Below are positions 5,731-29,557 of a stretch of DNA of 33,861 nt, piece by piece. The translations under genes were made by a program, and so were the position numbers. The notes beneath the pieces are model-generated. The model was not told where the DNA came from. It saw only the letters and a list, made by a program, of their open reading frames with translations, and did not search any database. Position 1 is the first letter of the stretch; the number at the start of each line of letters is the position of its first letter. Origin of the DNA: Aeromicrobium sp. (GTDB lineage: Bacteria > Actinomycetota > Actinomycetes > Propionibacteriales > Nocardioidaceae); assembly GCA_023257515.1 (NCBI GenBank), contig JALRCA010000037.1:1-33861 (forward strand), written 5' to 3'.

Positions 5731-6411
5731 TCACGCGAGCATCGAGTCGTGCAGGCGCTGCAGCGTGGCCTCGGAACCGCCGGAGTCGAGGAACCATCGC
5801 TGCGCGCCGCCGTCGACGGCGTCCCAGCGGTCGAGGACGAGCTCGATCGCCTCGGTGGGCGTATCGAAGAAGGAGGGCGGCACCGGACCGTGACGATCGT
5901 CGCGCCGCAGGCGCAGGTCGATCGCCTCGCGGGCGCGCTCCGTGAGCAGGTAGTCGTGGACGACGTCGTCGCGGTCGACCCCCAGGAGGCGCAGGACGAG
6001 CGCGACCGAGACGCCCGTGCGGTCCTTGCCCGCGGCACAGTGCACGAGCGCCGGACCGTCGACGGCAGCGATCTCGTCGACGACGCGGACGAGCAGGTGG
6101 GACGCGTCGTCGAGCACCAGTCCGTACAGCGCCGGCAGCGACTCGGCCCAGCCTCTCTCAGGGCGCAGCGCCGAGAGCAGCGGCAGGTTGACGTGCCGGT
6201 CCACGCGCGCGTGCAGCGGATGTCGACCGCCCTCGATCTCGGGCGCCGATCGCAGGTCGATGACCACCGACGGGGGCCACGCGATCTCGTCCGGCACCAG
6301 GTCGTCGGCGAACGGCAGCGCGCTGCGCAGGAGACGCCCCTGGCTCACGCGTCGGCCACCCGCGCCCAGCACGCCGCCGACGTCCCGCAGGTTCGGCAGC
6401 TCGGTGGGCAT
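5731..6411 (-). CDS. Tyrosine-protein phosphatase (PtpB-like)
   Basis: A 226-residue phosphatase of the Y_phosphatase3/PtpB type. The N-terminus (NLRDVGG) is the usual family opening. The P-loop is HCAAGKDRTG, with nucleophile Cys125 and phosphate-binding Arg131. The Lys-Asp inside the loop is typical of the lipid- and tyrosine-phosphatase branch that includes Mycobacterium tuberculosis PtpB. Asp52 in VIDLRS may act as general acid. No signal peptide is seen, so it is cytoplasmic or secreted by a non-classical route. The ATG at 6411 has TAGGCT six bases upstream and no Shine-Dalgarno, so it looks leaderless. It converges on the GNAT gene across a REP-like element. Confidence 0.9.
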   Translation of the reverse strand: MPTELPNLRDVGGVLGAGGRRVSQGRLLRSALPFADDLVPDEIAWPPSVVIDLRSAPEIEGGRHPLHARVDRHVNLPLLSALRPERGWAESLPALYGLVLDDASHLLVRVVDEIAAVDGPALVHCAAGKDRTGVSVALVLRLLGVDRDDVVHDYLLTERAREAIDLRLRRDDRHGPVPPSFFDTPTEAIELVLDRWDAVDGGAQRWFLDSGGSEATLQRLHDSMLA

Positions 6412-6417
6412 GCGGTG

Positions 6418-6423
6418 AGCCTA
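6418..6423 (-). promoter_or_regulatory. -10 hexamer TAGGCT of leaderless phosphatase mRNA
   Basis: On the minus strand TAGGCT is followed by six bases and then the phosphatase ATG. No ribosome-binding sequence lies between. The same hexamer at the same spacing precedes the ppx-like gene at 32602. Confidence 0.5.
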
Positions 6424-6508
6424 GTCGTCGCCTCGGACACGGCCGAGACGCACGTCCACACGCCGCGCGCGCAGCGGGGCCAGAGCAGGTGTGAGGTGGG
6501 CCGCACCC

Positions 6509-6514
6509 TAAAAT
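6509..6514 (+). promoter_or_regulatory. -10 hexamer TAAAAT of leaderless SGNH gene
   Basis: TAAAAT, close to the consensus TATAAT, lies six bases before ATG 6521. There is no Shine-Dalgarno sequence, so the mRNA probably begins at the start codon. Confidence 0.6.
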
Positions 6515-6520
6515 GGACGT

Positions 6521-7441
6521 ATGCCTCGTCTCCTCAAGTCGGCCCGTCTCGCGGCCATCGGAGGAGGAGCAGCCACCGTCGGCTACTGGACGGTCCTGTT
6601 GAGCGAGGTCATGGTCGCTCGGCGCGTCATCGGCACGACCGACGAACGCCCGCCGCGCGCCGACGGCGTCTACGGTGTCGACCTCGGCGGCACGCCGGTG
6701 CGGCTGCTCGTGCTCGGCGACTCCGCGGCCGTCGGCTACGGCATGCAGCGTGCCGACCTGACGCCGCCCGCCCTGCTCGGCATCGGCCTCTCGCACGTGC
6801 TCGGCCAGCCGGTCGACGTGCGCAGCCAGGCCGTCGTGGGTGCCCAGACGCACGACCTGCGCGAGCAGGTCAACATCGGCATCGAGCACCGTCCGGACCT
6901 GGTGCTCATCATCATCGGTGCCAACGACGTCACCCACCGGGTGCCGTCCTACGTCTCGTCCCGTCTGCTGTCGGCCACGGTCAAGCGGCTCCGCGACAGC
7001 GGCGCCGAGGTCGTCGTCGGCACGTGCCCCGACCTGGGCACCGTGCGGCCCATCCCGCAGCCCCTGCGCTGGGTCGCCCGCCGCAAGAGTCGTTCGCTCG
7101 CGCGTCGCCAGACCATCGCGACCGTGCGCGAGGGCGGCCGCGCGGTCTCGCTCGGCGGTCTCCTCGGCCCGGTCTTCGCCGAGATGGCCGACATCATGTT
7201 CGGCGAGGACCGCTTCCACCCGTCGGCGACGGGCTACGCCAACATGGTCTCGGTCCTCGTGCCGTCCCTGGCCGCGAGCTGGCGCGAGCGGCACCGCGAC
7301 TACGCCGTCCCGCACTCGCTGGGCCACCAGGACACGATGTCGCTGGTCGAGGCCGCCGAGCGCGCAGGCCGCCGCGACGGTACCGAGGTCACGCCCGAGG
7401 GCCGGTGGGCGACCACCATCCTCCGACGCCGCCGCGCCTGA
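6521..7441 (+). CDS. SGNH/GDSL-type hydrolase with N-terminal membrane anchor
   Basis: A 306-residue esterase/lipase-fold enzyme. A hydrophobic N-terminal segment (residues 8-30) looks like an uncleaved signal anchor, placing the domain outside the membrane. Block I is GDSAAVGYG with nucleophile Ser68. Block III is GAND at 133-136, giving the oxyanion Asn135. Block V is DRFHPS, giving catalytic Asp230 and His233. The family hydrolyses esters of lipids, polysaccharides or peptidoglycan, and the substrate is not deducible. The C-terminal 60 residues are charged and outside the fold. The gene is leaderless by appearance and converges on the Bax-inhibitor-like gene across a long palindrome and a terminator. 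Confidence 0.9.
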   Translation: MPRLLKSARLAAIGGGAATVGYWTVLLSEVMVARRVIGTTDERPPRADGVYGVDLGGTPVRLLVLGDSAAVGYGMQRADLTPPALLGIGLSHVLGQPVDVRSQAVVGAQTHDLREQVNIGIEHRPDLVLIIIGANDVTHRVPSYVSSRLLSATVKRLRDSGAEVVVGTCPDLGTVRPIPQPLRWVARRKSRSLARRQTIATVREGGRAVSLGGLLGPVFAEMADIMFGEDRFHPSATGYANMVSVLVPSLAASWRERHRDYAVPHSLGHQDTMSLVEAAERAGRRDGTEVTPEGRWATTILRRRRA

Positions 7442-7449
7442 CTGACCCC

Positions 7450-7529
7450 CGCCCCCTCCAGATCTGCGCCCTTATACACCGTTGCGGGTGTCGCGAATGG
7501 TGCATGACGGCGCACATCTGGAGGGGGCG
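7450..7529. repeat. Long imperfect palindrome (31-bp arms), REP/BIME-like
   Basis: The arm at 7450-7480 begins CGCCCCCTCCAGAT and is matched inverted at 7499-7529 with 27 of 31 positions. An 18-nt centre separates the arms. The arms carry two or three compensated-looking differences in the middle and an unbroken 14-bp outer stem. This is far larger than a terminator, and a separate terminator follows immediately. It is best explained as a dispersed palindromic repeat. Confidence 0.8.
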
Positions 7530-7539
7530 GGACGCACGA

Positions 7540-7568
7540 AGGCCGGCCCCGCCATGCGGGACCGGCCT
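7540..7568. terminator. Bidirectional terminator
   Basis: AGGCCGGCCCCGC at 7540-7552 pairs with GCGGGACCGGCCT at 7556-7568 (12 of 13, one G-T) around a CAT loop. It lies between the convergent SGNH hydrolase and Bax-inhibitor-like genes. Confidence 0.8.
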
Positions 7569-7586
7569 CCGGCTGAGCTGACGGTG

Positions 7587-8444
7587 TCAGTCGTTGCCTC
7601 GCAGGATCATCAGGATGCGGATCATCTCGATGTAGAGCCAGATCAGCGTGACGGTGAGGCCGAAGGCCGCACGCCACGACTCGCGCTCAGGCAGACCGGC
7701 CTCGACGCCGCGCTCGACGAAGTCGAAGTCGAGGATCAGCATGAACACCGCCAGCACCACGGCGATGGCCGAGACGATCAGGCCGAGGGTGTTGAAGCCG
7801 CGGATGCCGCCGTTGTTGATGACGCCGGTGATGCTGAGGACGAAGTTGATCAGCGTGGCGCCGACGAACGCGAAGATCGAGATCGTGACGACCTTGCGGA
7901 ACTTGTCGGTGACCCGGATGTTGAAGAACTTGTAGGCCGCGAGGGTCGCGAGGAACGCCACCATCGTGCCGACGACCGCCTGGGCGACGATCGAGGTGTC
8001 GCCGACGAACGTCGCAGCCACCTTCGACAGGGCGCCGACGAAGACACCCTCGGCCACCGCGTACGCGAGCACCAGGGCCGGGCTGATGACGCGCTTGAAG
8101 GAGTTGACGAGCGAGAGCACCAGGCCGACGATCGCGCCGGCCGCGGCGAACCCGATGGCCCGCTGCATCGCGCCGGGCTCGGCGAAACCGTCCGCGTCGA
8201 ACATCTGGCCGATGGCGACCCACGTGACGGCCGCGGTCGCGATGACCAGGCCGAGCGTCATCCCGGTCTTCTGCACGACCGAGTCGATGGTCATGCGGTC
8301 GTCGACCCCGATCGTGGGGTAGCCGTTGCCCTGCGGCTGGTTCAGGTCGATGTGCCACTGCGAGGGATCGCTCGACCTGGCGGTCGTCGTGCCGCGGCCG
8401 TTGAACCCCTCGGAACGGTTGAAGACGGGGTTGTTGCTCTGCAT
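7587..8444 (-). CDS. Bax inhibitor-1/YccA family membrane protein
   Basis: A 285-residue protein with a ~60-residue polar N-terminus and about seven transmembrane helices from residue ~60 to the end. It ends in a WRAAFGLTVTLIWLYIEMIRIL helix with the short basic tail typical of actinobacterial BI-1 homologues. Conserved acidic residues in LILDFDFVERGVEAGLPERESW match the family's last loop. BI-1/TMBIM proteins are pH-sensitive calcium leak channels in the best-studied bacterial case. The role in this organism is unknown. The start ATG 8444 (MQSNNPVFNR) has GGAGGAG upstream; a longer in-frame extension exists but lacks support. It appears monocistronic. Confidence 0.92.
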   Translation of the reverse strand: MQSNNPVFNRSEGFNGRGTTTARSSDPSQWHIDLNQPQGNGYPTIGVDDRMTIDSVVQKTGMTLGLVIATAAVTWVAIGQMFDADGFAEPGAMQRAIGFAAAGAIVGLVLSLVNSFKRVISPALVLAYAVAEGVFVGALSKVAATFVGDTSIVAQAVVGTMVAFLATLAAYKFFNIRVTDKFRKVVTISIFAFVGATLINFVLSITGVINNGGIRGFNTLGLIVSAIAVVLAVFMLILDFDFVERGVEAGLPERESWRAAFGLTVTLIWLYIEMIRILMILRGND

Positions 8445-14394: not shown

Positions 14395-14493
14395 GGGCTG
14401 GGTCTCAGATGCGTCGATCAACTCCGACGCTGCGGGATAGCCGTGCCAGTCACCGCACGACGTCAGGTACGAATAGGACCGTTCTGGTTCGGA

Positions 14494-15774
14494 ATGTCAG
14501 TGATCGCATTTACCTTTGGGGGTAGCCCGTCGGCATTGGTAAGTGAGACCGTGGACCAAAACTCATATGACGATCACGCACTCTGGCCCGTCCTAAACAG
14601 TTTGCAGGAGATGCTTGCGGGGGACCTCGCGGCGGAGGATGCGGAACACCGCAACGAAATTCGCCTTGCGCATTCTGTCGCGCAATACGTGGAATCGCTC
14701 CGCGGCGTCGACCCCGGGCTCGTGGACGAGGCGATCCTCACATCCCTCTCGCAGAACCTAACTGAAGCGAGGGATTACCTGACTTCCTACCTCCAGGACC
14801 GCGTAGCGAATGCGGGCGTGCTCACGTCGAACGCCGTCGCGTCTTTCCACAGCGTGCGAAACAGTGCCATTCAGTCGATGCCGCCCCCGCCAGCGGACGA
14901 ACAAGCACGCGCTGCTCAGGAGGCAACGAACCGCTACAAGCGGTCAGCCGACGCCGAGATCGCTACGTTGCGCGAGCAGGTCGGCGGGTTGAAGCAGCGC
15001 ATCGCCGAGCTCGATGAGCAGCGCACCACTGACGTAGAGAATGCGCAGTCATCCTTGACCGAACTGCAAGAAAAGATTGCGGAGGGCAACCAACACGTCG
15101 CGACGCAGACCACCCAGTTGCAGGAGCAGATAGAAACTCAGCGAACTGCTTTCTCTGAGGAAGCCGAGCAGCGCGAGAGTGTGTTCAGGGAATCGGAACA
15201 GGCCCGGACGGCGGCAGCCGACGAGCAACGTGAGCAGCAGTCTCAGAAGGCGACGGATCTGCTCTCCGAGCTGAAGGGCTACCGGGAACAGGCGCGGGGG
15301 CTCATCGAGGCTACGGGGCGTGACGCCGTCTCCGGCGACTATCAAGTGTGGGCGAAAGATCAGGGCAAGGTCGCGAAGTGGTGGAACGTCGCCGCCGTGG
15401 TGGTGGGTCTAATCACCGTCGGCGCTTTGGTCTGGGTAGTGCTCGGCGCCCGCAACGACACCACGCAGTTCCTGATCGCGAAAAGCAGCGTCGGCATCAT
15501 CGGCTTGATCGTTGCCGGGTACTGCGGACGCCAGGCCGCTGAGCATAGGGCGGAGGAACGAACCGCGAAGCGCCTCGGATTGGACCTGGCCGCATTGGAG
15601 CCGTTCCTCGAGAACGTTGACAACCCACAGGAGCTACGAGTGGAGATTGCACGGCGAGTTTTCGCCCCGGAGCCTCCCGCGTCTGAGGATCGACGCATCT
15701 CGTTAGGTCGACGCGGAATGTCAGTGAGCGAGTTGACCGAGTTCATCAAGATCGTCCAGAACCCACCCGGTTAG
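14494..15774 (+). CDS. Membrane-anchored coiled-coil protein, unknown function (island A)
   Basis: About 426 residues from ATG 14494; an in-frame GTG at 14443 would add 17. A helical N-terminal domain (residues ~1-130) includes LVSETVDQNSYDDHALWP and ends at PPPP. A long coiled coil (~135-265) rich in Gln/Glu/Arg follows, then two transmembrane helices (~296-319 and ~326-345). The tail is a ~80-residue cytoplasmic domain ending in a short helix (SELTEFIKIVQ). G+C is clearly lower than in neighbours, and a TTA codon is present at 15703. It is alone between core genes and abuts the 3' end of a tRNA. The layout resembles membrane effectors or sensors of phage defence, but no known family is recognised. 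Confidence 0.75.
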   Translation: MSVIAFTFGGSPSALVSETVDQNSYDDHALWPVLNSLQEMLAGDLAAEDAEHRNEIRLAHSVAQYVESLRGVDPGLVDEAILTSLSQNLTEARDYLTSYLQDRVANAGVLTSNAVASFHSVRNSAIQSMPPPPADEQARAAQEATNRYKRSADAEIATLREQVGGLKQRIAELDEQRTTDVENAQSSLTELQEKIAEGNQHVATQTTQLQEQIETQRTAFSEEAEQRESVFRESEQARTAAADEQREQQSQKATDLLSELKGYREQARGLIEATGRDAVSGDYQVWAKDQGKVAKWWNVAAVVVGLITVGALVWVVLGARNDTTQFLIAKSSVGIIGLIVAGYCGRQAAEHRAEERTAKRLGLDLAALEPFLENVDNPQELRVEIARRVFAPEPPASEDRRISLGRRGMSVSELTEFIKIVQNPPG

Positions 15775-15855
15775 ACCCGAACCCAAAAGGTTCGCATCAG
15801 TCGAGTTCGGGATTCGGACCCTCGCCACTTTCCATCCGCCACCCTCCTGGAGATG

Positions 15856-15929
15856 TGCTCCCGGTGGGGGTCGAACCCACACTGGGGCGGGTTTAAGCCG
15901 CCTGCCTCTGCCGGTTGGGCTACGGGAGC
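15856..15929 (-). tRNA. Class I tRNA with anticodon TAA (Leu codon UUA; identity uncertain)
   Basis: The minus strand gives a complete cloverleaf. The acceptor is GCTCCCG/CGGGAGC (7 of 7), the D stem GCC/GGC, and the anticodon stem GGCGG/CCGCC with loop CTTAAAC. The variable loop is five bases, and the T arm is GTGGG-TTCGACC-CCCAC. The discriminator is A; CCA is not encoded. The anticodon is TAA (plus-strand 15893-15895). Normal tRNA-Leu is class II with a long variable arm, including actinobacterial bldA-type tRNA-Leu(UAA), so this is not the ordinary Leu tRNA. The amino acid it carries cannot be deduced. A decayed copy is at 23810-23874. Confidence 0.85.
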
Positions 15930-20886: not shown

Positions 20887-21210
20887 TCCATGCCGGGCCG
20901 GAGTGCCAGTTGACGGATGCGCGCCGACCTCCAGGGTCCCGTGGCTCAGAACCCCACCCAGCCGAGGGTGCCTCATAGACAAGCTCTGAGAGAGCGTCAG
21001 TCTGCCGTTCAAGAATCAACAGTTCGGTCTTGGAGCCGAGAGCCTGGCCCGGCGAGGCAGATGTCCCGTGCAGCGCGTCAGAAATGAGACGAACCTGTCG
21101 ATGACGCCGCCCCAGGCTGAGGCTCAGGATCAAACGTCGAACTCACGCGCTACTCCCGATTCTGGAACCTGGAATTGAGAACGCATCAACTTTGATCTCG
21201 CATCTGTCGA
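20887..21210. other. Gene-free left margin of island B
   Basis: No convincing reading frame, hairpin terminator or tRNA is seen here. The minus strand at about 21110-21150 contains an 11-base word shared with the 16S rRNA 5' end followed by an imperfect continuation, but indels make homology doubtful. The stretch lies between the end of the MFS gene and the stop of the last island B gene. It probably marks a recombination boundary. Confidence 0.5.
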
Positions 21211-21981
21211 TCATGCGGCATTAGCAATCTCCTCAGCCTTGGTCACACCGGGCGGCAGGAGGCGGACCATGCGGGTCCCCTTGTCGAACTCGATCAAGCG
21301 CTCCTTGTGCATCTTCGTCAGCACGTCCCTTCGGTAAGCGGCGACGCTGGGGTGCTCCAGCCAGCGCACGAGATCGTTCTCGTGGACCTCGTCAGTCTCT
21401 GAAAGTAAGAGCAGGTAGGTCTGCGCGCGCCACGTGAGGCCAGTCTTCAGCACTCGCTTCTTGTCGCCGTGAACCCACACCAGCGGGACCTCGCGCTCGG
21501 TCAGCGCATCCACAATGACCGTGGCCTGGTCGATGTTCAGCGTGTGGAGCATCCGGACCAACTCGGCGACGAGCCACTTCGCGTTGTGCAAGACGAGCAT
21601 GGCATCCATCGAGTTGGGGTCGACGTCCCCTCCGGTATGTCCAACGTTCCGGTTGTTGCGGATCTCCAGCATGCCTAGCATCAACCTCGGGATTAGCACC
21701 CGAGCCGGCCGCGAGTCTTTGACTGCTGAGTACTTCGCCTCCAGTCCCCAGCACTTTTGCGGGAACTGCGCCGGCTTTTTTGCGCGGTCCGGATACACGC
21801 CACCTTCCAGCCAGCCCACAATGATCGTGTAGACGGCCTCACACAACTTCCCGCCGTTCAACTCTGAGGGTTCCCACCGATGCTCCCGGTAGTTTCTAAC
21901 GATCTCGTTGAAGGCGTTCAGCAGGTCGTCGCGCAGACCAGCGGGCAGGACCGCGAACGCGTCTTTCGGCTCCAGACTCAT
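21211..21981 (-). CDS. Unrecognised protein with HEPN-like Rx6H motif and C-terminal winged helix (island B gene 3)
   Basis: 256 residues, soluble. The central helical part contains LNGGKLCEAVYTIIVGWLEGG and then EIRNNRNVGHTGGDVDPN, giving R108-x6-H115. This fits the Rx4-6H pattern of HEPN ribonucleases and abortive-infection C-terminal domains. The C-terminal ~70 residues (LLLLSETDEV...YRRDVLTKMHKERLIEFD) have a winged-helix pattern. Its ATG overlaps the TGA of the upstream gene by one base, so it is the third gene of an operon read on the minus strand. I recognise it as one of a set of uncharacterised proteins. RNase activity is inferred from the motif alone. Confidence 0.78.
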   Translation of the reverse strand: MSLEPKDAFAVLPAGLRDDLLNAFNEIVRNYREHRWEPSELNGGKLCEAVYTIIVGWLEGGVYPDRAKKPAQFPQKCWGLEAKYSAVKDSRPARVLIPRLMLGMLEIRNNRNVGHTGGDVDPNSMDAMLVLHNAKWLVAELVRMLHTLNIDQATVIVDALTEREVPLVWVHGDKKRVLKTGLTWRAQTYLLLLSETDEVHENDLVRWLEHPSVAAYRRDVLTKMHKERLIEFDKGTRMVRLLPPGVTKAEEIANAA

Positions 21982-22514
21982 CAGGACATCCCGCCTTCAA
22001 TCATCGCCTCAACACGCTTAACGCCCTCGTTAGTCAACTTGTAAGTCTTCCTGGCCTGCGCACTGCTGCCGGATTTCTTCAGTTGAAGCACCAACGAGGG
22101 CTTGTCCTTGATCAGCGCATCAAACTTCTGATTGATGTGCCCGACGCCATGACCGAGTTCCTTCAACTCCTTGTTGAGCGCGTAGGCCTGGAAGGTCACG
22201 GCGCCCTGGATCTTTTGTTGCCAGTAGCCCGCCACGAGGACCTTTTCCTTGTCCGAGGTTGGTCCGGCCGCGTCGTACAACTCGGCGAAGAAGTCGAACT
22301 GCGGCTGCGGACCGTTGCCGGTTTCCGTGCCATCGTCTTCATCGGGCTCGTCGTTACTGGACTCCTGGGCGGACCTGCCCGGGCCGGGGTCCCCGACGGC
22401 GATGTCGAAGCGTTTGACGGCCCAATCGATGACGCGCTCACGGACCTCCGGCTCCAGGTCCTCCAGCGCGTCCTTGACCGAACGCATGGCGTCGAGTTCC
22501 GCGTCGTCGCTCAT
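21981..22514 (-). CDS. Unrecognised protein, acidic linker plus winged-helix-like domain (island B gene 2)
   Basis: 177 residues. A short N-terminal helix pair (residues 1-40) precedes a Gly/Glu/Asp-rich linker (~41-75). The C-terminal domain (~85-175) runs FAELYDAAGPTSDKEKVLVA, AYALNKELKELG and YKLTNEGVKRVEAMI, a winged-helix-like pattern. Its ATG overlaps the upstream stop by four bases (ATGA) and its stop abuts gene 3, so the three are translationally coupled. Its C-terminal domain has the same order of helices and final wing as gene 1, suggesting distant paralogy. No function is known to me. It could be a nucleic-acid-binding or scaffold subunit. Confidence 0.75.
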   Translation of the reverse strand: MSDDAELDAMRSVKDALEDLEPEVRERVIDWAVKRFDIAVGDPGPGRSAQESSNDEPDEDDGTETGNGPQPQFDFFAELYDAAGPTSDKEKVLVAGYWQQKIQGAVTFQAYALNKELKELGHGVGHINQKFDALIKDKPSLVLQLKKSGSSAQARKTYKLTNEGVKRVEAMIEGGMS

Positions 22515-23122
22515 CGCGCCTCCCCCGTGATTCGGTCAACGAGAGCTGGAAAATTCTGAATGCCGCTGGACCGCGCGCGGATACGCCGGTTCTGGCCGGA
22601 CCCCGTGACCACGAAGCCTTCGATCGTCGCGAGGTGCGACGTGAAGTTGGCAGAGTCGTAGCACCTCAGGCGCACGACCTCGTCGCGGATGACCTCAATC
22701 GAGGTGTCGACCTCGCCCAAACCAAAGCCGCGAGCGATAGTGAGCACCTGCGCTACCGCACGGGTTTTCTCGGCATTGTTCTTACCGAGTCGCACACCGG
22801 GGATCGAGATAACCGGCACACCGTCGTCTTCGTGGAACAATTGCTCGATTTTCTCGCGGTCCGCGCCGGTCTGCATCACCACGCGGTCGTACATCACGTC
22901 TTCGGATACGTGCGCAGCGTCCCCGCTGGAGTCAGCGGCCGCGAGAGCTTTTCCCGGCCTGGCGACAGACGGACGTGGGGCGGCCGCGGAAATCACGGGC
23001 TGACCCAGGGGTGCAAGCATCCGCACGGCCTCACGGAACGCGATCTCGTGGAACTGCGGTGGGAGATCGGCGGCGATCACGGCCTCATGGGCCTTCTTGA
23101 GGGTTTCGCGAACCTCGGTCAT
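22511..23122 (-). CDS. Unrecognised protein with C-terminal winged-helix-like domain (island B gene 1)
   Basis: 203 residues. The N-terminal helices (LPPQFHEIAFREAVRML) are followed by an Ala/Pro/Ser-rich linker (~42-70). A domain with VMYDRVVMQTGADREKIEQLFHED resembles a small helical sensor. The C-terminal part (AQVLTIARGFGLGEVDTSIE...NFTSHLATIEGFVVTG) looks like a winged helix. It is the first gene of the operon. The ATG at 23122 has AAGGTAGG upstream and a -10-like TATCCT about 25 bases further up. Codon use is lower-GC than core genes. Function is unknown; association with genes 2 and 3 suggests one complex. Confidence 0.75.
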   Translation of the reverse strand: MTEVRETLKKAHEAVIAADLPPQFHEIAFREAVRMLAPLGQPVISAAAPRPSVARPGKALAAADSSGDAAHVSEDVMYDRVVMQTGADREKIEQLFHEDDGVPVISIPGVRLGKNNAEKTRAVAQVLTIARGFGLGEVDTSIEVIRDEVVRLRCYDSANFTSHLATIEGFVVTGSGQNRRIRARSSGIQNFPALVDRITGEAR

Positions 23123-23809
23123 CTGGACCTACCTTCTCTGGGGAAACCAGGATACGCACAAAATGCTAGACGTCCATGACATTCATTCCTCAGCGTGTCC
23201 CTACATCCACGTGACTCGCCGTCGCTCTCGATCCGGACGCCGCTTGAACTCGATATTTTCAGGGTCAAATGAATCCACGACGCGAAGGCTGTTGATGAGC
23301 AAATGATTGCGAGTGGAGGAGGATGCACATTTGTGGAGGACTACATGCAGGTGACCTCGTGTTCATTTGGCCTTTGACCTGCGCTTTTATACGCCTGTCC
23401 GCGTCGTGCATGCTTTCTTGCCTCACATGCATTTTCTCGAGATCCTTTCAACCGATTCCCTCTCCGTCGACAGGAATGACTGCCCTTGTTCGGCCTGCTC
23501 CCGCCACGGGCTGCCAGTCCCGCCCAACTCTGTTCCCGCGGGATCGACGAGCGGAGTCAATACAATCGGGTCAGCAGAACGCCTCGCCGCGAAGGACGGT
23601 GGCCTGCTCTTAGTCGCGCGCGACCGTGACCTCGCCGCTTCCTCAGCGGCGCGCTAAAGAACGTAGCGACGTCAGACTGCAGCGGGACCTTGTCGAGGAA
23701 CAACACCCAGAGGACGTCTCGCTCGCTTCTCCGAGTGCTTACGCCTGTCTCGTCAACGAAATCGACCCAACCGCCGCCCAGAAGCAACGCAGATGCCACG
23801 CGGTTCGCA
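23123..23809. other. Unassigned 0.69-kb leader region of island B, possibly decayed DNA
   Basis: No frame here has a good start, codon bias and recognisable protein together. The plus-strand frame ending at 23657 contains a CPCSACSRHG segment and could be the remnant of a Cys-rich protein, but it opens only at a TTG and has no Shine-Dalgarno. A GCCGCTTCCTCAGCGGC hairpin occurs near 23633-23649. The 5' end near 23123-23180 holds the likely promoter of the three-gene operon. G+C is mixed, as expected for decayed or composite DNA. Confidence 0.45.
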
Positions 23810-23874
23810 GTGGGGGTTGAACGCACATTAAGAGGAGCTGAGGCCGCCTACCTCTACCGTTTGGCTACGGGAGC
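23810..23874 (-). pseudogene. Decayed copy of the UAA-anticodon tRNA
   Basis: The 5' acceptor strand and junction (GCTCCCGTAGCC) are identical to the tRNA at 15856-15929. The D arm is recognisable (GCC...GGT), and the T-arm region GTGCG-TTCAACC-CCCAC keeps four of five pairs. The anticodon arm is scrambled and the 3' acceptor strand is absent, so it cannot form a tRNA. Orientation matches the intact copy, and the island B genes lie on its 3' side. It is a divergent duplicate or an integration scar. Confidence 0.7.
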
Positions 23875-23899
23875 GCTGGACCAGCACGGCAGGAGCGGG

Positions 23900-26555: not shown

Positions 26556-27689
26556 ATGCACGATCTCGATCAGCAGACCGAGTACTTGCGCGGGGCTCTG
26601 CAACAGGATCGTCGACCCCTTGGATTCCTGGTAGGAGCCGGCGCACCAATGGCTGTCAGAGTCGACGGAAGGCCGATCATCCCGGACATCGCTGGCTTGA
26701 CGTCGCACGTCGAGAAGAGCCTAAATGGCCGAGAAGCCCTGACCGTCAGGGCGGCGCTGGACATCCTGGCTCACTCCGGCTCCGGCAGTCCGAACGTCGA
26801 GAACATCCTTGACTACCTTCGCACGTTGGCGGAGTTGCCCGGAGACGTACCCATCCATGACATTGAACCCGCTGCAGTTGAGGCGGCAGACCGCGCTGTC
26901 TGCGGATGCATCAGATCAGTTCTTGACGTGCGCCTTCCCGATGACCGCACGCCCTTCCACGCGCTTGCCGTTTGGACTCGTGCCGTCAGACGCCACGCGC
27001 CCATCGAACTCTTCACGACCAACTACGACCTGCTTATTGAGGAGGCGCTCGAAGCCTCGGGCGTCCCATACTTCGACGGTTTCGTGGGTAGTTATCGACC
27101 CACGTTCGACATTGAGGCCGTGGAAGAAGATCCGCTTCCCAAGCGGTGGGCACGCCTATGGAAGTTGCACGGATCGATCAACTGGCAGTTGACGCGTAGC
27201 AATCAAGTCGTCCGCGCGGCCAGCCCGGTCGACGACGGCGGAACCATGATCTACCCAAGCCACTTGAAGTACATGCAAAGCCGACGCCTCCCCTACCTTG
27301 CGATGCTCGACCGGCTAAGAAGCTTCCTCCGACAACCCGGTGCAATCCTCATATCCATCGGCTTTGGCTATCGCGACGAACACATTAACGAAGTGATTCA
27401 GCAGGCCCTTCGCTCCAACCCGACCGCTGCGGTTCTCGCACTGATGTACTCCAAGGCCAGCGAGTATCCCGAGGCGATACAACTCGCCGGGCAAACGCAG
27501 AACTTGTCATTAGTTGCACGCGATGAAGCAATCATCGGTACCCATCGCGCGACTTGGTCGCCGATCGATGGCAATAAAGCGACTAGCGACCTCGGGGACT
27601 TCGGCCCATTCGGCGACCTGCTGTGGGAACTAGTTGGGCTTTCGGTGAACGAGAACAGTGAGTCGCCTACAACTACCGCGGGGGAGTAA
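26556..27689 (+). CDS. SIR2-like NADase of a SIR2-HerA anti-phage system
   Basis: A 377-residue SIR2-domain protein. The NAD-binding opening is GAGAP (27-31). FTTNYD (153-158) supplies catalytic Asn156, and KLHGSINW supplies His205. ISIGFGYRDEHI (~267-278) is the late Rossmann motif. Such defence SIR2 proteins hydrolyse NAD+ to starve infected cells. Its stop overlaps the ATG of the HerA gene by one base (TAATG), giving strict coupling. This pairing is the known SIR2-HerA (Nezha) system, in which the two proteins form a supramolecular complex. Codon use is lower-GC than neighbours, with a TTA at 27510. The Shine-Dalgarno is weak. Confidence 0.92.
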   Translation: MHDLDQQTEYLRGALQQDRRPLGFLVGAGAPMAVRVDGRPIIPDIAGLTSHVEKSLNGREALTVRAALDILAHSGSGSPNVENILDYLRTLAELPGDVPIHDIEPAAVEAADRAVCGCIRSVLDVRLPDDRTPFHALAVWTRAVRRHAPIELFTTNYDLLIEEALEASGVPYFDGFVGSYRPTFDIEAVEEDPLPKRWARLWKLHGSINWQLTRSNQVVRAASPVDDGGTMIYPSHLKYMQSRRLPYLAMLDRLRSFLRQPGAILISIGFGYRDEHINEVIQQALRSNPTAAVLALMYSKASEYPEAIQLAGQTQNLSLVARDEAIIGTHRATWSPIDGNKATSDLGDFGPFGDLLWELVGLSVNENSESPTTTAGE

Positions 27690-29557
27690 TGATCTCTTCC
27701 GAGCGCATCGGAGAGGTGCACGACGTCCGAGGCGACACCGTGATCGCGCGGCTCAATGCCGCCTCAGTGCCGGGCCTCTCATTCTCGCGGGGACATGGGT
27801 ACCAAGTAGGGCAAGTCGGCGCGTTCGTACGCATTCCTCTAGGTCTGCAGGACCTCTACGCCCTCGTTGTTGAGGTTGGATCGAACCCCGTCAGCGACAC
27901 TCAAGCCGAAACTCAGCTTGCCGTCGAGTGGGCACCTCCTGGCACAGCATGGATGCGTCTCGAACTAATCGCTCAAGGCGATCGAGCCGGCCAGGTTCGT
28001 CGCGGCGTATCTCGCTACCCCGCCGTAGGGGACCCAGTTGTCCTTGTAACCGCAGAAGACCTTGGTCGAATCTACGGGAAGGCCTCGGGTCCCTCGCTCA
28101 TTACTATCGGCCATGTAGCTGGAGCTCCTCAGCTGAGGGCGGTCGTCGACACTGACAGGCTCTTGAACCGGCATACCGCCGTCTTCGGCAGCACCGGAGC
28201 GGGCAAGTCAACCACGGTATCGGGTCTACTGCACCAACTTGCTAACCCAAGTCAGTTTCCCGGATCGCGCATCGTTGTCGTGGATGTGCATGGTGAGTAC
28301 GCGAGCGCCCTGGGCGGGTTTGCCTCTGTTCACGCTGTCGCCGGATTAGAAACAGCCAACGCGCCGGAAGTCTCTGGCCTAGCAATACCGTTCTGGGCGC
28401 TCACGTACGACGAACTCGTAGCCGTGACGTTCAGGGACCTGGACGACGCAAGTAGCGCAGCCGTTCAAACGTGGATCGTCGCAGCTAAACGTGAGTATGT
28501 CCGACGCCATCCCGAAGTCCGCATGGATCCGAATGACGTCACCGTCGACACCCCGTTGCCCTTCAGCCTGCGTCGCCTCTGGTTTGAGCTCTACGAGCGT
28601 GTCACCGCTACCCACTTTGCACAGCAGAATTCGCAGTCAGACGACACGCGCGCGTACGAGACCGACGCGGAAGGGACGGAGATGCGAGGTGACGTGGAAA
28701 GCGTCACGGCACCCGTCTACAAGGGCTTAGTCGCGGGCAAGATCTTCCTCAGCGCGTCGCTCCTCCCGATGCGCCGTCAGCTGGACCGGCTCGCTGCCCT
28801 TCTGCGGGATCCACGCTATGACTTCCTCTTCAAACCCGGACCTTGGGCACCAGATCAGGACGGAGAAACCGAAGAAGACCTCAGCTCGTTTCTCCGACAA
28901 TGGTTGGGCGGGTCCAAACCCCTTGCTGTCGCGGACCTATCGAACGTTCCGAGTGCAGTGCTCCCCGAAGTTGTCGGCGTTCTGCTCCGGGTCTTGTATG
29001 ACGCCGTTTTCTGGGCTCGAGAACTACCCGAGGGAGGTCGCCAAAGACCTCTTCTGGTCGTCCTCGAAGAAGCGCATCGTTACCTCTCATCGAAAAGTGG
29101 CGCCGCTTCGGCCGTTGTCGAGCGGGTGGTGAAGGAAGGCCGGAAGTTTGGAGTGGGTTTGATGCTAGTGAGCCAGCGACCGAGCGAGATTCAGCCGACT
29201 GTGCTCAGCCAGATCGGAACGTTCTTCGTCCTCCGTCTCAGCAACAGCACTGACCGAGGCCTCGTCAAAGCAACGGTTCCGGACAATCTCGGAGGACTGT
29301 TCGACACCGTCCCGGCATTGCGAACCGGTGAGGCGCTTGTCGTTGGCGAGGCCACTCGACTGCCCACCCGAGTGCTTCTCACGATCCCGGCGTCTCAGCG
29401 ACCCGACAGCCGCGATCCCTCTGTGGTTGGCGACGACGAAACGCGTGGTTGGACCAGCAGCCGCGATCCCGAGAACTACGACCACGTGGTCAGCAACTGG
29501 CGCAAGACCAACACAAGAGCGAGTCAGAGCAATGAACCGAACTCCAGTAAGTTCTAG
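27689..29557 (+). CDS. HerA-like hexameric ATPase of a SIR2-HerA system
   Basis: A 622-residue FtsK/HerA-family ATPase. An N-terminal HAS-barrel (~1-110) is followed by the P-loop GSTGAGKST (167-175), VVDVHGEYA (HerA motif), an inserted helical region, and Walker B VVLEEAHRYLS (~457-467). VERVVKEGRKFGVGLMLVSQRPSEI supplies the arginine-finger and sensor regions. Archaeal HerA is a DNA translocase working with NurA; here the neighbour is SIR2, so it acts as the assembly and activation partner in defence. Two TTA codons occur at 28346 and 28727. The gene ends inside the next small gene. Confidence 0.92.
   Translation: MISSERIGEVHDVRGDTVIARLNAASVPGLSFSRGHGYQVGQVGAFVRIPLGLQDLYALVVEVGSNPVSDTQAETQLAVEWAPPGTAWMRLELIAQGDRAGQVRRGVSRYPAVGDPVVLVTAEDLGRIYGKASGPSLITIGHVAGAPQLRAVVDTDRLLNRHTAVFGSTGAGKSTTVSGLLHQLANPSQFPGSRIVVVDVHGEYASALGGFASVHAVAGLETANAPEVSGLAIPFWALTYDELVAVTFRDLDDASSAAVQTWIVAAKREYVRRHPEVRMDPNDVTVDTPLPFSLRRLWFELYERVTATHFAQQNSQSDDTRAYETDAEGTEMRGDVESVTAPVYKGLVAGKIFLSASLLPMRRQLDRLAALLRDPRYDFLFKPGPWAPDQDGETEEDLSSFLRQWLGGSKPLAVADLSNVPSAVLPEVVGVLLRVLYDAVFWARELPEGGRQRPLLVVLEEAHRYLSSKSGAASAVVERVVKEGRKFGVGLMLVSQRPSEIQPTVLSQIGTFFVLRLSNSTDRGLVKATVPDNLGGLFDTVPALRTGEALVVGEATRLPTRVLLTIPASQRPDSRDPSVVGDDETRGWTSSRDPENYDHVVSNWRKTNTRASQSNEPNSSKF

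Follow-up and report, generated by a model that had tools for sequence, protein, structure and literature searches.

HEPN ribonucleases (RNases) are common effectors of bacterial immunity, and each is usually accompanied by its own control device. The HEPN superfamily is characterised by four helices folded as two hairpins, helices 2 and 3 being separated by an insert, and by an RNase activity independent of metal. In the EcoprrI locus, where PrrC is embedded in a type I restriction-modification (R-M) system, the gene order is hsdM-hsdS-prrC-hsdR according to the accessible part of PMC3014915. The excerpted text of PMC3710099 describes RnlA/RnlB and LsoA as anti-phage cases in which a HEPN RNase is silenced by a small protein from a neighbouring gene, AbiV as usually lacking the HEPN motif H, and MTES_1575-type giants as combining HEPN, helicase, Vsr nuclease and wHTH in one protein, with a proposed function in sensing invader DNA.

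The locus compared with these systems here is a group of three genes in the window, which is the whole stretch of 33,861 nucleotides of Aeromicrobium sp. DNA that was analysed. The following features were recognised:

22511..23122, minus strand: g1, 203 aa, optional partner of class E; N-terminal module, linker and C-terminal winged-helix-like domain (winged helix indirect)
21981..22514, minus strand: g2, 177 aa, core partner of class A; helical N-terminal segment, acidic linker and winged-helix-like C-terminus
21211..21981, minus strand: g3, 256 aa, predicted ribonuclease with an N-terminal HEPN domain and a C-terminal winged helix
21484..21981, minus strand: predicted HEPN domain of g3 (residues 1-166), from model and residue conservation
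21838-21840, 21658-21660 and 21637-21639, minus strand: predicted active-site residues E48, R108 and H115 of g3, respectively
21214..21450, minus strand: C-terminal winged helix of g3 (residues 178-256), from model and structure match
20889..23898, no strand: variable tRNA-Leu hotspot holding the cassette, bounded by the genes of an MFS transporter and a PIF1-like helicase
23810..23885, no strand: tRNA-Leu remnant beside the cassette, from identity to the relative G214 and to the window's own intact tRNA-Leu

With moderate confidence, we read the trio as one copy of a mobile, modular toxin-type cassette in which a partner-controlled HEPN RNase serves phage defence, following a PrrC-like logic that is built differently. 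The phage-defence role is a prediction.

From residue conservation and structure models, g3 is predicted to encode a HEPN protein with a C-terminal winged helix and putative endoribonuclease activity. R108 and H115, the R-x6-H pair pointed out in the preliminary description, are indeed separated by six residues (R-NNRNVG-H). In the g3 model R108 is located at the end of helix 91-109 and H115 in the loop preceding helix 122-146, and the acidic residue E48 is placed in helix 44-58. All three residues were invariant in 50/50 aligned homologues, and residue 109 after the motif R was N in 47/50 and S in 3/50. The active-site layout given in the excerpts of PMC3710099 consists of motif R/H, a polar residue after R and an acidic residue in helix 2; g3 showed the corresponding R/H placement, polar residue and helix-2 acidic residue, and the Ex3[KR] form of the acidic motif was absent (E48-AVY-T52). 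The invariant residues and their HEPN-like placement thus support the HEPN reading of g3 made earlier. Foldseek searches with both g3 models gave no significant match (best E for the N-domain 1.4) and no significant HEPN match. HepT structures were found among the rows obtained for the N-domain in VIA, where other helical bundles scored close to HEPN. The winged helix of g3 was clear from both the model and a structure match.

The preliminary description had proposed profile searches for each protein. In these, g1, g2 and g3 all stayed below the curated cut-offs of Pfam and NCBIfam, and comparison with PADLOC-DB 2.0.0 (2023), which predates systems named later, gave 0 families at E ≤ 1; in PHROGs, matches were obtained for g2 only, at E 0.2 or worse. 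The 45 g3 homologues compared with the same PADLOC release matched three families with one member each (best E 0.0053). Within PADLOC 2023, the statement that the trio matches no named defence system is therefore upheld. The related statement that no nuclease is present misses the mark, because g3 as a HEPN protein is itself the likely nuclease. Homologues at E ≤ 1e-3 numbered 2689 proteins for g3, 193 for g2 and 162 for g1, which shows the trio to be more than chance ORFs. Among the matches listed (120 each for g1, g2, and g3), they were named hypothetical or uncharacterized protein wherever the name was usable.

The partner proteins appear to share one layout, in which a short module at the N-terminus is joined by a linker that varies to a winged-helix-like domain at the C-terminus; for the C-terminal domain the direct evidence is modest. 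For the g2-type class A, PadR was matched in 4/36 proteins (best E 0.0016), and the g2-type profile matched MepR/MarR at E 0.34. For g1 no match up to E 10 was found in the PDB, and a winged helix is suggested indirectly, via a chain of profile alignments. The g1 and g2 profiles did not align directly (probability 1%) and were joined through the partners of loci L043 and L041, to which the g1 class (E) was linked at 81.7% and 89.9%, respectively. Besides, profile alignments connected classes A and B (96.7%), A and C (86.7%), B and C (87.0%), and class B with the L037 partner (93.4%); class D showed no profile link above 10%, and a 240-aa protein of L013 was also unlinked. Since the profiles connect via the L043 and L041 intermediates, the view that g1 and g2 are unrelated was rejected, and the shared linker-plus-winged-helix plan ascribed earlier to two of the proteins is supported through intermediate links, not by direct alignment. 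Of the winged helices claimed for all three proteins, that of g3 is clear, that of g2 has weak profile matches and that of g1 is indirect.

Compared with the described systems, the cassette is similar to HepT/MntA as a two-gene HEPN toxin pair with HepT structures among the VIA rows, but the g3 partner is not a nucleotidyltransferase (36 partner-type proteins matched 17 Pfam families at E ≤ 0.1, none of them a nucleotidyltransferase), and g3 has an extra winged helix. Like RnlA/RnlB and LsoA, it combines a putative HEPN RNase with a small protein from a neighbouring gene; by description it is set apart from them by its variable winged-helix partners, and neither an RNase H-like nor a TBP-like domain was matched in the cassette. 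AbiV, a two-component antiphage HEPN RNase (9bj6/9bj7), resembles it in the HEPN fold that is predicted for g3 and in having two components, and was found in low-ranking Foldseek rows with both g3 models, but g3 retains motif H, and the descriptions of AbiV in the excerpts contain no winged helix. MTES_1575-type proteins likewise join HEPN with winged helices, whereas the cassette consists of short separate proteins without helicase or DNase. A weak similarity was found to the PADLOC candidate PDC-M16: the winged-helix part of the class B partner in L026 resembled PDC-M16B (E 1.6e-5; L027 E 0.016) and the PIF1-like neighbour in the window matched PDC-M16A (E 1.7e-13). However, this match is at domain level only, g1 and g2 had no match, and the PIF1-like gene is also present in cassette-free relatives; a literature search for PDC-M16 returned nothing. 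In type II toxin-antitoxin systems, where one protein neutralises the toxicity of the other, the putative antitoxin gene adjoins the toxin gene and is co-transcribed with it; in line with this, the genes overlap in the window, which predicts co-transcription, and an upstream partner-type gene was present in 50/50 loci. The HEPN domain, the winged helix and R-M linkage are of known kinds; in the literature searched, we found described neither the g3 family nor a HEPN-winged-helix effector with interchangeable partners.

A total of 45 loci were typed, namely 42 from a scan of genome contigs, the window, genome G022 and the viral contig L065 (L002 and L061 are the same place in G022 and were counted once), and five further loci (G675, G823, G865, G878, and G923) from a whole-genome profile search brought the total to 50. 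L013-type and truncated genes were kept in the counts, and the gene calls of the fetched loci were made by a simple script and contain errors. In 42/45 loci a partner recognised by class HMM (class A or related) ended between -38 and +28 nt from the g3 start, where matches of class HMMs B, C, D, and F are circular, these having been built from the same loci; the input for HMM A consisted of g2 homologues from databases and that for HMM E of g1 homologues, part of them located on the same contigs. In L013, L029, and L037 the classed partner was located further upstream, with another ORF between it and g3. All five later loci contained a small same-strand gene directly upstream of g3; this was matched by class HMMs in 3/5, and the partners in G675 and G923 are assigned by position and similar plan only. 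In total, an upstream partner-type gene was present in 50/50 g3 loci. By comparison, a g1-class gene was found in 7/45 typed and 2/5 later loci (9/50), and the order g1-class, A or B, g3 in 4/45 (L003, L006, L029, and the window). The trio, taken as the unit in the preliminary description, was rejected as an obligate unit on this co-occurrence. What is conserved is g3 together with a small partner gene upstream of it, and this partner is replaced by diverse proteins from one locus to the next.

In a few loci g3 is also followed immediately by an additional gene of partner type (L016, 3054-3752; L018, 10787-11341; L037, 10748-11263; L077, 8526-9032), and a g1-class ORF was found beyond g3 on the opposite strand in L008 (11056-11775, minus strand).

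The cassette is patchy and mobile. With seed genomes included in the frequencies, g3 matches were found in 2/396 genomes of the window's phylum, in 1/58 relatives, 37 of them in the window's genus (1/37), and in 2/299 and 5/200 genomes from the phyla of two matching genomes. A phylum label was available for 39 of the 45 rows in the tree, with ten different labels among them. The phyla were mixed, 12 label changes being needed compared with a possible minimum of 9, and a cyanobacterial row was paired with a Burkholderiales row at 100/96; some of the tree records are bins, so that mis-binning can contribute to this mixing. No g3 homologue was detected by tblastn in phage and plasmid records, and five scans of viral contigs yielded one contig, L065. 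At 5773-7752 this contig has a resolvase, a gene of 158 aa, a partner like that of L043 (two partner-type genes in all) and, at its edge, the start of g3. Phage or plasmid cargo was rejected on these results.

In the window, g1 and g2 overlap by 4 nt (22511-22514) and g2 and g3 by 1 nt (21981) in the ORF list, and the trio has a GC content of 0.60-0.62 compared with about 0.70-0.74 for flanking core genes. The tRNA-Leu remnant showed 79% identity with the tRNA-Leu stretch of G214 and matched the window's intact tRNA-Leu (15855-15929) at 53/68 bases. A SIR2-HerA pair (26556-29557; PADLOC E 1.3e-133 for SIR2 and 1.6e-148 for HerA) starts 3.4 kb from g1, with the PIF1-like helicase gene in between. 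The overlaps, low GC, tRNA remnant and SIR2-HerA at about 3 kb noted in the preliminary description were thus all borne out. The pair was shown to be a separate insert, with 3484 bp past the PIF1-like gene in the window vs 540 bp in G412. In the relatives G214 and G412 the slot between the MFS and PIF1-like genes was filled by genes other than the cassette: G214 has one for a protein similar to OLD/AriA/GajA (E 6e-50), and G412 one for a type II-like methylase (E 2e-40) along with an ATPase-like gene. The PIF1-like helicase was rejected as a cassette component, since its gene is also present in relatives without g3. Promoter and terminator scans gave no signal exceeding shuffles.

Some cassette copies, a minority, are tied to R-M genes. 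A set of hsdM, hsdS, and hsdR was present in 4/44 loci (L007, L008, L041, and L061; L065, with its partial g3, was left out of this search), with the cassette nested in L041 and L061; as the hsd queries were drawn from loci holding hsd, this count is a non-blind minimum and other systems could be missed. The set was present in 0/5 later loci (4/49 overall), and hsd genes were absent from the locus DNA examined in 40/44 loci and in all five later ones. Based on 29 strong N6_Mtase matches (E ≤ 1e-40) in 136 Mb, 0.12 would be expected in the 0.54 Mb of locus DNA, vs at least 3 seen near the cassette in the 30 loci with genome-wide counts (P 2.4e-4). In L061 the order was hsdM, hsdS, cassette (reversed), hsdR, with HsdS and HsdR confirmed by Pfam; compared with the EcoprrI order in the accessible part of PMC3014915, this cassette is thus in the PrrC position. 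In L041 the cassette was located between hsdM (the match contains one TGA) and hsdS, and cassettes were often oriented opposite to the hsd genes. The likeness to PrrC/EcoprrI thus comprises a predicted HEPN RNase, the prrC position in G022 and a latent RNase that would be held by partners. However, g3 lacks the ABC NTPase domain to which HEPN is fused in PrrC/RloC and is made up of just the HEPN part and the winged helix (the window protein matched no Pfam family), and its cassettes use separate winged-helix partners in a transcription unit of their own, reversed relative to hsd in L061. In addition, the window cassette and most copies have no hsd neighbour in the DNA examined.

Two related Gemmatimonadota, G865 and G878, had flanking blocks with 89-93% identity (80% at one far end) around different contents: one of the two has g3 with two class E genes, and the other has three genes, one for a class A partner, one for a g3 that differs, and a third. 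The two cassettes are in opposite orientation within one slot and adjoin the same DNA methyltransferase (2zie, E 1.5e-107) and a 200-aa gene for which the PDB gave nothing useful, and cassette, methyltransferase, and 200-aa gene are bounded by 48-49 nt direct repeats (L076, 4951-9877; L077, 6633-10944). In G067, in whose genome no g3 match was found, hsdS is followed by a related winged-helix partner (E 9.7e-7 to the g2 profile) whose ORF overlaps that of a predicted nuclease, pP_pnuc_1 (L066, 1693-4653). PADLOC matches near cassettes included type I and II R-M, mads, MzaA, dGTPase, and Druantia-type genes; this tally covered 148/202 near neighbours (nearest first, at least 130 aa, near set only with no far control), and no enrichment is claimed from it. 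The link with defence loci proposed in the preliminary description is supported by the nearby SIR2-HerA, the hotspot defence genes in relatives and the hsd loci. Inspection by eye alone pointed to possible R-M genes near L026 and L039.

In the partner-controlled RNase reading that we favour, g2, and optionally g1, would probably bind g3 and keep the RNase silent, as the constant pairing and the overlapping genes suggest. The winged helices may anchor the complex on nucleic acid. The block on g3 would be lifted by infection or when a neighbouring R-M barrier is lost, and freed g3 would cut RNA and stop phage growth, probably host growth too. The variety of partners could couple one conserved effector to different triggers. 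In some cases the cassette would accompany R-M, in the way put forward in the excerpts of PMC3710099 for HEPN proteins linked to R-M. An extended version, which we put forward tentatively, is that of a modular, transferable immune switch: a HEPN-winged-helix RNase with an unvarying active site and interchangeable partners tuned to different triggers, in cassettes exchanged inside R-M units as a fallback that fires when R-M fails, and hence an ATPase-free counterpart of PrrC.

A serious rival, although a rather unlikely one, is a plain toxin-antitoxin (addiction) module with g3 as toxin and g2/g1 as antitoxin and autorepressor, kept for stabilising islands and R-M units; it overlaps the defence reading, and sequence cannot separate the two. 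The upstream overlapping partner gene, the pairing in 50/50 loci and the mobility all agree with it, as do the winged-helix partners, which fit autoregulation, and the location of cassettes inside repeat-bounded mobile units and, in another case, on a viral contig with a resolvase. However, antitoxins are generally smaller than the partners, which have 157-268 aa and two modules; one to two partners occur per cassette, g3 itself bears a winged helix, and the ties to R-M loci and to the defence hotspot also argue against it. We regard as improbable a dedicated R-M accessory, i.e., a guard that would stay inactive until the R-M system next to it is blocked, in the way of PrrC and EcoprrI. The four hsd-associated cassettes, two of them nested, the methyltransferase adjoining the G865 and G878 cassettes and the G067 pair behind hsdS are in its favour, but no R-M gene was recognised beside the window trio, the great majority of loci had no hsd in the DNA examined, and cassettes often run opposite to the hsd genes. 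It is very improbable that the proteins form a regulatory complex on DNA with a non-catalytic HEPN domain that serves RNA binding or dimerisation: winged helices are present in g3 and probably in the partners, and inactive HEPN domains are known (PMC3710099, excerpts), but the unvaried E48, R108, and H115 would be needless in a purely structural domain, and the patchy, mobile distribution also stands against it.

For the favoured reading of a defence cassette, this widespread family, for which Pfam, NCBIfam and PADLOC have no model and in which the effector is kept and the partner changed, represents a natural experiment on re-wiring a toxin to new triggers. The copy in prrC position and the cassette replacement beside one DNA methyltransferase raise the testable question of whether R-M loci are docking sites for exchangeable suicide modules, and in G067 a related partner is paired with another effector.

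Further observations were made around the window locus. The intact tRNA-Leu and the remnant are in the same orientation, about 8 kb apart, on either side of the trio and the MFS segment. The tRNA-Leu of G214 and G412 is positioned between the MFS and PIF1-like genes, and the window segment has therefore been rearranged or re-integrated. A 443-aa ORF with lower GC (14443-15774), which adjoins the intact tRNA-Leu and had no Pfam match above cut-off, is possibly another insert. In the relative G399, a gene for a PDC-S06-like ATPase (L059, 10838-13156, minus strand; PADLOC E 1.4e-61) adjoins the PIF1-like gene, which thus borders defence genes elsewhere too.
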